Source: Pelagibacteraceae bacterium AG-426-G09 (GTDB taxonomy: Bacteria; Pseudomonadota; Alphaproteobacteria; Pelagibacterales; Pelagibacteraceae). From it: a DNA stretch of 61,408 bases. A program made the translations under genes and the position numbers. Location of the stretch: positions 1-61,408 of the forward strand of contig QCNR01000008.1 of the NCBI GenBank assembly GCA_003210075.1, given 5' to 3'. How positions within the stretch are numbered: position 1 is the first letter of the stretch; each line of letters opens with the position of its first letter. A model generated the notes under the pieces. It ran no database searches, had not been told where the DNA came from, and saw nothing but the letters and a program-made list of their open reading frames with translations. Of this stretch, positions 18,931-21,818 are shown in pieces.

Positions 18931-20628
18931 ATGGATTTTAAAAAATATAATAATTTGGTAGATTTGTTTTTTGAACAATGTCAGATACAATCAAAGGATA
19001 AAATTTTTTTATCAACCTTAAAAGATCCAAAAAAAAATTATTCTTGGGACGATGTAAGAATAAAAGTTTTAAAACTTGCAAATGAAATTTCAAAAATAAT
19101 AAAAAAAGGTGACAGATGTTTATTAATATCAGAGAACAGACCAGAGTGGATGATTTCTGATTTATCAATAATGTTAGCAGGCGGAATTACGGTTCCTGCT
19201 TATACAACATATGTTTCAAGAGATTATGAATACATTATTAATGATTGTACACCAAGCGTAATTCTTGTTTCAAATGACGATCAGTTTAAAAAAATTAAAA
19301 GTATTTGTGAAAGAAACTCTTCAATAAAAAAAATATTTTCTTATGAAAAGCTAACTGAGGTAGATGATAATGCATATCTTAATATCGAAAATATTTTTCA
19401 AAATAATGAAAATATTGAAATGAATTTAACGAGTAACGCCTCCAGATCAGATCCAGCCTGTATCATTTATACCTCTGGCACTCAAGGTAATCCTAAAGGT
19501 GTCATTTTAAGTCATGGTGGAATTTTGAGTAACTGTGAAGGAGGTTATGCATTACTAAAACCAATTTTAGAAAAGGAAACTAGATTTTTAACTTGGTTAC
19601 CACTATCCCATTCTTATGAGCATGCAGTACAATTCATTCAAATAGCAGTTGCTGCAAAGGTTTTTTATGCAGAAAGCATTGATAAGCTTATCAAAAATAT
19701 GTCTGATTGTTCTCCACATATTATGACAGCTGTACCTAGATTTTATCAGAATTTATATCAAAAAATTACTTCTACTTTTAACAAAGCAAAAGGAATTAAA
19801 AAAAATTTAGTAAATCATACAGTAATACTAGGATCTAAAAAATTTAGAAAAGAAAAAATGTCTATATCTGAAAAAATCATTAATTATATTGTTGAAAAAT
19901 TAGTTAGAAGTAAAATTAAAAAGCAGTTTGGAGGGAGCTTGAAAACCTTTGTTTCTGGTGGCGGTGCATTAGACCCAGAAATTGGAACTCTATTAAATGC
20001 AATTGGACTACCGACTTTACAAGGCTACGGTCTAACCGAAACTTCACCAGTAGTTAGCTGCAATCCTATTGATGACATAAGAATTGAAACTGTTGGATTA
20101 CCATTCAATTGTAATGAAGTTAAAATAGCAGATGATGGTGAGATACTAGTTAAAGGTGAAAATGTAATGTTAGGTTACTGGAATAACAATGAGGAAACTA
20201 AAAAAGTATTAATAGACGGTTGGTTGTACACCGGTGATATAGGCAAGTTTGATAATAATTATCTTAAAATAACAGATAGAAAGAAAGACATAATTATTAC
20301 TCCAGGCGGAGATAATATTTCACCTTTAAAAATTGAAAATATGCTTGTTAGTTTAGATATAATTGATCAGGCTATTGTTTATGGAGATAATAAACCATTT
20401 TTAGTTGCATTAATAATTTTAAATAAAGATTTTGAATACAAAAAAGATAATTTGGAAAAAGAAATTGAAATTTTAAATAAAAATCTGACAAAAGTAGAAA
20501 AAATTAAAAAATATTTTGTAATAAAAGAAAATTTTACAATTGAAAATGGAATGATGACTCCAACTTTAAAATTAAAAAGATTTAAAATTATTAACAAATA
20601 TAAAAAAGATTTTGAAAATTTATATTAA
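18931..20628 (+). CDS. Long-chain acyl-CoA synthetase (AMP-forming)
   Basis: ANL-superfamily adenylating enzyme of 565 residues that activates fatty acids to acyl-CoA. P-loop motif IIYTSGTQGNPKGV, then GYGLTETSP (A5) and WLYTGDIG with DRKKDIIITPGGDNISP (A8 hinge) are in the normal order. The membrane-type insertion region and overall length match the long-chain (FadD15/ACSL) branch. The correct start is ATG 18931 just after tRNA-Leu; frames opening earlier run through the tRNA. No neighbour shares the pathway. Chain length is not readable. Confidence 0.92.
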   Translation: MDFKKYNNLVDLFFEQCQIQSKDKIFLSTLKDPKKNYSWDDVRIKVLKLANEISKIIKKGDRCLLISENRPEWMISDLSIMLAGGITVPAYTTYVSRDYEYIINDCTPSVILVSNDDQFKKIKSICERNSSIKKIFSYEKLTEVDDNAYLNIENIFQNNENIEMNLTSNASRSDPACIIYTSGTQGNPKGVILSHGGILSNCEGGYALLKPILEKETRFLTWLPLSHSYEHAVQFIQIAVAAKVFYAESIDKLIKNMSDCSPHIMTAVPRFYQNLYQKITSTFNKAKGIKKNLVNHTVILGSKKFRKEKMSISEKIINYIVEKLVRSKIKKQFGGSLKTFVSGGGALDPEIGTLLNAIGLPTLQGYGLTETSPVVSCNPIDDIRIETVGLPFNCNEVKIADDGEILVKGENVMLGYWNNNEETKKVLIDGWLYTGDIGKFDNNYLKITDRKKDIIITPGGDNISPLKIENMLVSLDIIDQAIVYGDNKPFLVALIILNKDFEYKKDNLEKEIEILNKNLTKVEKIKKYFVIKENFTIENGMMTPTLKLKRFKIINKYKKDFENLY

Positions 20629-20728
20629 AAAAAAACTTAAATTAATCGCTAATTACTTAACTTTTTTAAAATTACTAAAAAATTTATAAAAAAAAAAATT
20701 TTTGAAAAATTTTTGAAAAAATTAATGT

Positions 20729-20757
20729 TTGACATAACTAATCAAAAAAAATAAAAA
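20729..20757 (+). promoter_or_regulatory. Promoter of the basic-peptide gene
   Basis: A perfect -35 hexamer TTGACA at 20729-20734 and, after 17 bases, an A-rich -10-like TAAAAA at 20752-20757. The -10 is weak, but a perfect TTGACA is rare in this window and it precedes an isolated transcription unit with a strong ribosome site and terminator. Confidence 0.5.
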
Positions 20758-20767
20758 AAGAATAACA

Positions 20768-20789
20768 AACGAATCAATAATGATTCGTT
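20768..20789 (+). promoter_or_regulatory. Perfect 9-base hairpin in the leader of the basic-peptide gene
   Basis: AACGAATCA-ATAA-TGATTCGTT: two perfectly complementary 9-base arms around a 4-base loop, placed between the promoter and the ribosome site AAAGGGAG (20795-20802). It could be a protein-binding operator or an RNA stem that stabilises the messenger. No run of T follows, so it is not a terminator. Confidence 0.6.
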
Positions 20790-20807
20790 AATTAAAGGGA
20801 GCTAAAA

Positions 20808-20891
20808 ATGGCTAAAAGAAGAAAAAAAGCTGCTAAAAAGAAAACTAAGAAAAAAGCTAAGAAAAAAGCTAAAAGAAGAAGAAGAAGATAG
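20808..20891 (+). CDS. 27-residue Lys/Arg-rich peptide
   Basis: ATG 20808 to TAG 20889-20891. The product has 13 Lys, 7 Arg, 5 Ala, one Thr and the start Met: three KKxxKKKA-like repeats closed by five arginines. It resembles the tails of histone H1-like or AlgP-type proteins and extreme ribosomal-protein tails, but no family is recognised. Coding is supported by the gene having its own TTGACA promoter, a perfect leader hairpin, a good Shine-Dalgarno (AAAGGGAG) and a strong terminator 22 bases after the stop. Binding to nucleic acid is inferred from charge only. A noncoding RNA that happens to contain this ORF cannot be excluded. Confidence 0.7.
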   Translation: MAKRRKKAAKKKTKKKAKKKAKRRRRR

Positions 20892-20913
20892 TTTAGTATT
20901 CTTTTTAACTGAT

Positions 20914-20953
20914 AACGCTTCTCATGGCGTATGCGTGGGAAGCGTTTTTTTTT
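20914..20953 (+). terminator. Strong intrinsic terminator
   Basis: AACGCTTCTCA (20914-20924) pairs with TGGGAAGCGTT (20936-20946) over 11 pairs including one G-U, followed directly by T8 (20945-20952). The stem and its GC-rich loop stand out in an AT-rich region. It ends the basic-peptide transcript just before the convergent carD stop at 20952. Confidence 0.9.
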
Positions 20954-21818
20954 ATTCTATAGGTTCAGATATTGGATTTTCTTCTATGTCTTCTGGCCCT
21001 AGATCATTATTTTGGATTTCGGTTTTCTTTTCTAACTTAGCTTTTTGTGCTTCGAGATTTCTCTTTAAAGCTTTATCCAATTTTTTTTGTGTTTCTTCTA
21101 AAGAAGAGCCTAGTACAATTTTAAATTCTGATAGAAGCCTTTCATAGGCTTTTTCAAATAGTTGTCTTTCACTGTATGATTGATCAATCATAAGATCGTC
21201 ACCTTTATTTAAATCTCTCACTACTTCTGCTAATTCATAAATCTTCCCAGAGGAAATTTTTGCTTCATACTCTTGAGCTCTCCTGCTCCACATGGATCTT
21301 TTTATTTTTGGTTTACCCTTTAGAATGCTTATACACTTATTTACTTGATTTATAGTAGCCAGAGGTCTCAAATGTGATTGTTTGTTTACTGGAACCATTC
21401 CGGTTGCTTTATCTTTTTCAAATTTCAATAAATAGCTTTCTACTTCAATCCCACCAATGCTTATTTTTTTAAATTCAGTAATTTGACCAACTCCATGTTT
21501 TGGATAAACAACATATTCTTTGATTTTATAAATTTTTTTTTCAGTATCTTGTTTTTTGATTTTTTTTATTTCAGGTTTTTGTTCATTCGCTTTACTTATT
21601 CTTAAAGATTCACTTTTATTTGCGTCTTCTTTTTTATTAATCTGATTTACTTGTTTAACACCTTTTTTAATTTTATTTTTTTTTGGCTTTAAGATTTTTT
21701 TCTTCTTTTTAGAAATATTTGTTTTTCTTTTAACAACTTTTTTAATTTTTTTTGATTTAGTAGACTTTTTTTTATCAAATGTTTTCTTTAAAATATTTTT
21801 CAAATTTATTTTCTTCAT
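20952..21818 (-). CDS. CarD-family transcriptional regulator with Lys-rich N-terminal extension
   Basis: The CarD/CdnL module occupies roughly residues 95-260: the RNA polymerase-binding Tudor-like part contains [12 protein letters not shown] and MVPVNK, and the helical DNA-contacting part contains [12 protein letters not shown] and [12 protein letters not shown]. Such proteins bind the polymerase beta subunit and stabilise open complexes at promoters. The first ~90 residues are an unusual, very Lys-rich tail with KKKK-type runs. The ATG at 21818 lies 44 bases inside the ferredoxin gene; no later Met precedes the conserved part, so the extension is probably real unless a TTG/GTG start is used. 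Total 288 residues against ~165 for typical CarD. Confidence 0.85.

Follow-up and report, generated by a model that had tools for sequence, protein, structure and literature searches.

The question raised by this locus is what role can be assigned to a gene for a 27-residue peptide rich in lysine and arginine, flanked by promoter-like and terminator sequences of its own, in a SAR11 genome, where little spare DNA is kept. The window, that is the whole stretch of 61,408 nucleotides analyzed here, belongs to contig C8 of the source genome G000 (1.16 Mb in 38 contigs), and the unit occupies positions 20729–20953 of its plus strand. The components listed in a preliminary description of this DNA, TTGACA, a perfect 9-bp hairpin, GGGAG, and a 27-codon open reading frame with 20 Lys or Arg residues, are all present. 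The promoter-like site (20729..20757, +) combines the −35 hexamer TTGACA (20729–20734) with a 17-bp spacer and a weak −10 hexamer TAAAAA (20752–20757), so poor that it went unreported in a sigma-70 scan; a transcription start is predicted near position 20764. It is followed by the 5' leader hairpin (20768..20789, +), AACGAATCA-ATAA-TGATTCGTT, with 9 base pairs, no mismatch, and the loop ATAA, which includes at 20770–20775 the hexamer CGAATC discussed below. The ribosome binding site GGGAG (20797..20801, +) lies inside the longer motif GGGAGCTAAA[AG]ATG, and the reading frame (20808..20891, +) runs from the ATG at 20808 to the TAG at 20889–20891, with its Ala and Thr residues often spaced 3–4 residues apart. 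The intrinsic terminator (20914..20953, +) has a stem at 20914–20946 with 13 pairs, six of them G–C, and a T-run reaching 20953, such that its 3' end falls within the stop codon of the neighboring carD gene. A chance origin is unlikely in view of the count of terminator-like sites in 20500–21100, 2 versus 0.1 ± 0.4 in shuffled sequence, the two being the unit's own terminator and the leader hairpin on the minus strand. Throughout the window, the 27-codon frame alone among ATG-initiated frames of 20 codons or more reaches 70% Lys plus Arg, and none of 100 dinucleotide shuffles of the window produced a comparable one.

The unit recurs within the genus Pelagibacter, referred to here as g1. A DNA search retrieved it from 28 of 60 relatives at E < 1e-30, two of the 28 copies being cut by a contig end; all 28 genomes belong to the 36 same-genus relatives, and weaker matches in other genomes fell mostly on the A-rich coding part. 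Of the 397 genomes of the order, 227 contain the hairpin-plus-GGGAGC pattern, all of them from the same genus, with no match to its reversed control among the matches listed. In a leader-pattern scan, 79 of the 80 named records listed were Pelagibacteraceae, Pelagibacterales or Candidatus Pelagibacter, the remaining record being a chance match in one Thermoactinomyces. The longer ribosome-site motif is found in 28 of the 29 loci recovered by DNA similarity, the other one being cut by a contig end; loci found by searching with the motif were not counted as evidence for it. Pooling 176 copies and removing duplicates gave 158 distinct same-genus units; the Thermoactinomyces row remains in tallies of 159 rows and was dropped for those of 158, and a copy at a contig edge (L009), two cut copies (L106, L129), locus L030 and all sister-genus loci were left out. 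One of the secondary DNA-search matches, that in L030, is explained by a longer protein of a same-genus genome, a predicted 440-residue product (421–1743, +) whose start resembles a signal peptide and whose Lys-rich C terminus, the source of the match, comprises over 100 residues of repeats (KKKATKKK). In 158/158 distinct units, selected by a script that required GGGAGCTAAA[AG]ATG ahead of the frame, the basic frame is open, with 20–41 residues (20–30 in 149 of them). The script recognized the terminator pattern in 151 of 159 rows; the other eight comprise the chance match, one truncated copy, and six in which a variant hairpin and T-run are visible by eye.

Selection acts on the frame and on its charge. 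The comparison of synonymous with nonsynonymous change, proposed at the outset as a check, gave pN/pS = 0.21 over 254 close same-genus pairs, which, like the peptides in the spacing analysis below, are related and not independent. Across these pairs Lys–Arg exchanges (321) far exceed changes between basic and non-basic residues (60), whereas a random single-base change, with an assumed kappa of 2, would favor non-basic residues by approximately 3 to 1. Differences at codon positions 1, 2 and 3 number 97, 385 and 572. Between neighboring sequences, gaps in multiples of three make up 524 of 736 in the reading frame versus 69 of 607 in the leader, the former figure being partly forced because the frames were anchored at start and stop. 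The lysine codon AAG accounts for 30% of the pooled same-genus frames' lysine codons, compared with 0–19% in four nearby genes of the window, and the longest A-run is 6–8 in 156/158 frames; both features may reflect the avoidance of slippery runs. The unit is, then, a real protein gene, conserved together with its promoter-like and terminator sequences. A loss of the frame with retention of the hairpin, which had been put forward as the mark of an RNA gene, is not seen in the genus, where hairpin and frame are both retained. The early suggestion of a partly structural RNA survives to the extent that conservation of the 5' leader reaches across the order.

The gene of the CarD/CdnL family (carD; 20952..21818, −; Pfam PF02559 and PF21095) faces the unit tail-to-tail. 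The earlier term "isolated" therefore does not hold, as 154 of the 155 same-genus loci with sufficient flanking sequence have carD convergent to the unit. In L186, the remaining locus, the unit is kept although no directly convergent carD lies within 900 bases. On the upstream side, a gene for an AMP-binding, acyl-CoA ligase-like protein is found in 142/142 same-genus loci with room. carD is a synteny marker for the peptide gene. Its product had been said to carry a Lys-rich tail; the Lys-rich part is in fact an N-terminal extension of approximately 90 residues, with the first Pfam domain starting at residue 97. In another alphaproteobacterium (L209), the CarD core is likewise preceded by a stretch rich in Lys and Ala. 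On the minus strand, the leader hairpin at 20768–20789 is terminator-like, and so carD transcripts might cross the peptide gene as antisense RNA and stop there.

With CarD as an anchor, the adjoining DNA was read in other genera, namely g5–g11 (family f1) and g2, g3, g4 and g13 (family f2). Next to carD, 46 of 49 sister loci have a convergent Lys/Arg-rich frame with its leader. The peptides comprise 76–91 residues in f2, 34–58 in g7, 31–38 in g5, 32 in g11, 31–32 in g6, 21–24 in g8, 22–23 in g9, and 21 in g10. Of the three exceptions, L080 is interrupted by the end of its contig and L258 rests on a spurious CarD match. The third, L061 (1961–2107, −), comes from one genome of g12 (83% completeness); its leader is intact, and the frame appears to slip in an A-run, through either sequencing error or genuine decay, yielding 20 residues of the basic type before continuing into 27 unrelated ones. 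Outside the order, no convergent Lys-rich frame directly behind carD was found in the best 28 of 95 alphaproteobacterial genomes with CarD, a few of these 28 loci being incomplete. An 18-codon Arg-rich frame behind carD in L228 passed a loose composition filter and looks like chance. The f2 proteins, likewise convergent to carD, contain AAPKKK/PAKK repeats, and proline-containing repeats are also found in g6 and g7. The proposed homology of the long f2 form with the short form rests on position, on the leader, and on a similar start (AKxxKKAKKK), since low complexity by itself proves nothing. A tblastn search of 190 genomes of the class sample with an f2 protein gave one weak match and nothing in G000 and G061, two genomes of the order, among the matches listed, and is thus uninformative on absence elsewhere. 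Most sampled ocean SAR11-type genomes keep one tiny stand-alone gene for a polybasic peptide.

This picture is extended by a sequence profile covering promoter and leader and derived from 38 leaders. It gave one strong match in each of 26 selected genomes from 13 genera (26/26), with extra matches at 1e-3 or worse, a test that is partly circular in that many of these genomes had supplied the profile. Over the order it matched 335 of 397 genomes, 135 of the 151 good ones, and all 13 genera, once each among the matches listed. Of the 62 genomes missed (16 of them good), one was traced to its cause: in G004 the copy L009 starts inside the unit. In the other 237 genomes of the class sample there was one weak match (G471, E 8e-4), dismissed as chance and lacking a basic frame.

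Both TTGAC and CGAATC are invariant in 38/38 leaders from 13 genera, the former by design, as the leaders were trimmed at TTGAC. Most of the 38 leaders were chosen by a script seeking CGAATC, yet the hexamer is present in 46 of the 49 sister loci and in L061. It lies at approximately +6 of the predicted transcript, and its distance from TTGAC is nearly fixed, 39–41 nt in 46/46 leaders of other genera and 39–42 nt in the 154/154 same-genus units that include the upstream part. Its pairing partner varies. In g1, g8, g9, g10 and g12 the partner is GATTCG or GATTTG, L027 of g1 being the only exception, and compensatory change in the outer stem of g1 is almost absent. In g5, g6, g7 and g11 the hexamer is mostly unpaired and the stem is formed by the next bases; this stem carries two paired substitutions between lineages and is partly broken in L076. 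The paired changes in the inner stem are T–A to A–T (CACTTA/TAAGTG versus CACATA/TATGTG) and A–T to G–C. In the f2 leaders, GAATCA(C) pairs with (G)TGATTC. A 5' hairpin kept with a sequence-fixed 5' strand is more than a plain stem requires. No consensus fold emerged from the order-wide alignment, because it mixed two types of leader. A repeated operator, as expected of a regulon, was considered and rejected: in a scan of 15 genomes the full CGAATC/GATTCG palindrome was found at the peptide locus, and only there, in 10/10 Pelagibacter genomes tested; looser matches elsewhere turned up in three of the 15 genomes, and a reversed control pattern also matched in three.

The two leader types differ in the computed accessibility of the ribosome site, all leader folds discussed here being predictions. 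The leaders of g5, g7, g11 and f2 contain a patch, CTCC or CCTC, able to base-pair with the ribosome site, and genus means of computed accessibility are 0.24–0.45, compared with 0.86–0.94 in g1, g8, g9, g10 and g12 and 0.81 in g6. The CTCC/GGAG stem of f1 is invariant wherever it is present, which leaves no covariation to argue for or against it; an alternative pairing outscored it in a simple stem search in L070, L077 and part of f2. In a CarD tree of 45 rows the genera with an open site form one clade with support of 96/98, and g6 is placed beside it with weak support (81/37). Occluded types, among which L080 was labeled by family alone, are found on both sides of the f1/f2 split. The simplest history, as judged from this one gene tree, would start from an occluded leader and a longer protein, followed by loss of the occlusion and shrinkage of the protein.

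In the peptide itself, the non-basic residues, mostly Ala and Thr, are in excess at spacings of 3, 4, 7 and 8, below expectation at spacings of 1, 5, 6 and 9, and never 2 apart (55 distinct but related same-genus peptides, 1000 shuffles). As far as can be judged from residue spacing, this is a stripe along a helix. Along these lines, AlphaFold2 in single-sequence mode modeled a 30-residue form as one helix (pLDDT 95) and an 89-residue f2 form as two (pLDDT 82), in a context where Lys/Ala sequences are prone to helix prediction. Same-genus forms are 60–81% basic and have no large hydrophobic residue past Met1; having no hydrophobic side, they are unlikely to serve membrane or pore roles. Searches of Pfam, NCBIfam, PDB sequences and Rfam gave no credible match to peptide or leader. 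For the short and long forms the best Pfam/NCBIfam hit had E 4.3, below the cut-off, with models that are weak on low-complexity sequence; Rfam reported only tRNAs above the gathering cut-off in the window and eight loci. The initial impression that the peptide belongs to no named family thus agrees with the libraries searched, and the protein is called H1-like here rather than placed in a family. No description of the gene was found in the literature searched, in which subscription papers are sparsely covered. The available text of PMC5069961 makes no mention of histone, lysine or small RNA. Neither Table 1 nor the four further main-text motifs of Meyer et al. 2009, on structured RNAs of Candidatus Pelagibacter ubique, include a region adjacent to carD; the leaders reported there (rpsB, rpsL, ffh, SAM-V) resemble the present one in being conserved 5' leaders that each precede a single gene, and in occurring in the same group of organisms.

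The closest parallel in composition is provided by the H1-like proteins, such as Chlamydia Hc1/Hc2, Bordetella BpH1, and the C-terminal domain of Pseudomonas AlgP. With these the peptides share Lys/Ala(/Pro) repeats, few or no acidic residues, and in-frame variation in length, features that are strongest in f2 and g7 and reduced in g1; the f2 orthologues resemble such tails. Variation by in-frame repeat units, a habit of H1-like proteins, is described for Hc2 (PMC2848022), and the KPAA-repeat domain of AlgP is described as DNA-binding (PMC9239181). Unlike H1-like proteins, the Pelagibacter form has mostly 20–30 residues, Arg-rich ends and no separate N-terminal domain; its gene has a dedicated conserved leader and carD synteny, and no sequence-family match links it to them. 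On balance, we regard as probable, with considerable reservation, a shrunken H1-like, helical polycation with a putative affinity for nucleic acids and a controlled leader. The peptide would be a stand-alone polycation of minimal size, one Lys/Arg helix that bears an Ala/Thr stripe. It would represent, in Pelagibacter, a histone-H1-like protein rich in Lys and Ala that has been kept beside carD in the order. By analogy with H1-like tails, it would most likely bind DNA and/or structured RNA through its charge, neutralizing and bridging phosphate backbones as a small counter-ion or packing protein, presumably an abundant one. Its own promoter, if transcribed as predicted, and the conserved 5' leader would set the output of peptide. 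Where the protein is longer, the leader is mostly predicted to be capable of covering the ribosome site with a CTCC...GGAG stem. Pelagibacter and its nearest genera have lost this stem and their site is open, which suggests that translation, once damped, rose as the protein became smaller. Autoregulation through the leader may be proposed as well. A bolder version, advanced here tentatively, would have a universal and probably essential peptide, shrunk from an H1-like ancestor, governed by a new cis-acting leader RNA whose CGAATC would serve as the binding site of the peptide itself or of a dedicated partner.

The main rival to the H1-like polycation is a ribosomal role like that of bS22/eL41: the peptide would be a basic helix seated on the 30S subunit near h27/h44/h45 and autoregulated through a leader of the kind found before ribosomal protein genes. 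A conserved leader with occlusion of the ribosome site is typical of ribosomal protein genes. Size, extreme charge and the predicted short single helix encoded by a stand-alone gene also fit bS22/eL41/mS38. PF08213, the bS22/mS38 family, was found in none of the whole genomes of relatives (0/31), versus one match, in Corynebacterium glutamicum, among 14 control genomes; the corresponding ribosomal site could therefore be free. The peptide differs from these proteins in basic content, 60–81% in the genus compared with the 55–65% reported for the short helices of bS22/eL41 proteins (PMC10085706), and in matching neither PF08213 nor, in its short form, any other Pfam or NCBIfam model. eL41 is annotated most often with 25 residues in eukaryotes (PMC7005279). 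A range of 20–91 residues within one order is unexpected for a fixed rRNA pocket and favors a general polycation, and the proline-containing repeats of g6, g7 and f2 look H1-like; the ribosomal reading is accordingly given less weight and appears rather unlikely. Less probable still is a dual-function or structural RNA, in which the leader would be as important as the peptide and CGAATC would be a binding site for protein or RNA. The hexamer is invariant although its partner is GATTCG, GATTTG or absent, it keeps a near-fixed distance from the −35 element, and the inner stem shows paired changes; against this stand the strong selection on reading frame and charge, the failure to obtain a consensus fold, the partly broken inner stem of L076, and the scarcely compensatory outer stem of g1.

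That the unit is an appendage of carD, exerting antisense control over it or terminating it with the peptide as an incidental product, is quite improbable, for all that its convergent position is nearly constant, its hairpin resembles a terminator on the minus strand, and a mycobacterial CarD is reported to be regulated by an antisense RNA (PMC8820732). The terminator of the unit's transcript ends inside the carD stop codon, so that there is almost no overlap; the minus-strand terminator shape is absent, by eye, from the other leader type; the peptide is under selection; and L186 keeps the unit with its carD match beyond the test distance. An attenuation leader peptide sensing the supply of Lys and Arg, as a short frame rich in two amino acids and followed by a terminator might suggest, scarcely merits belief. 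No long same-strand frame follows down to 24997, carD and the next three genes lying on the opposite strand, and orthologues reach 91 residues; as an attenuator the unit is ruled out by gene order, in the window and in 154 of the 155 same-genus loci with room.

In spite of the scarcity of spare DNA in SAR11 genomes, a unit with promoter-like site, leader and terminator is kept in all 13 sampled genera. It appears to trace a protein cut from approximately 90 to approximately 23 residues with charge and gene address retained. The product is an H1-like basic protein in kind, and the leader before it is uncharacterized. Genes of such size are easily overlooked, and the family models searched do not cover the peptide. 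It is a candidate for the condensation of DNA or the stabilization of RNA in SAR11 cells, which have very few proteins for such tasks. If this holds true, it would be among the smallest free-standing chromosomal or ribosomal proteins known, in cells that are among the most abundant in the ocean.
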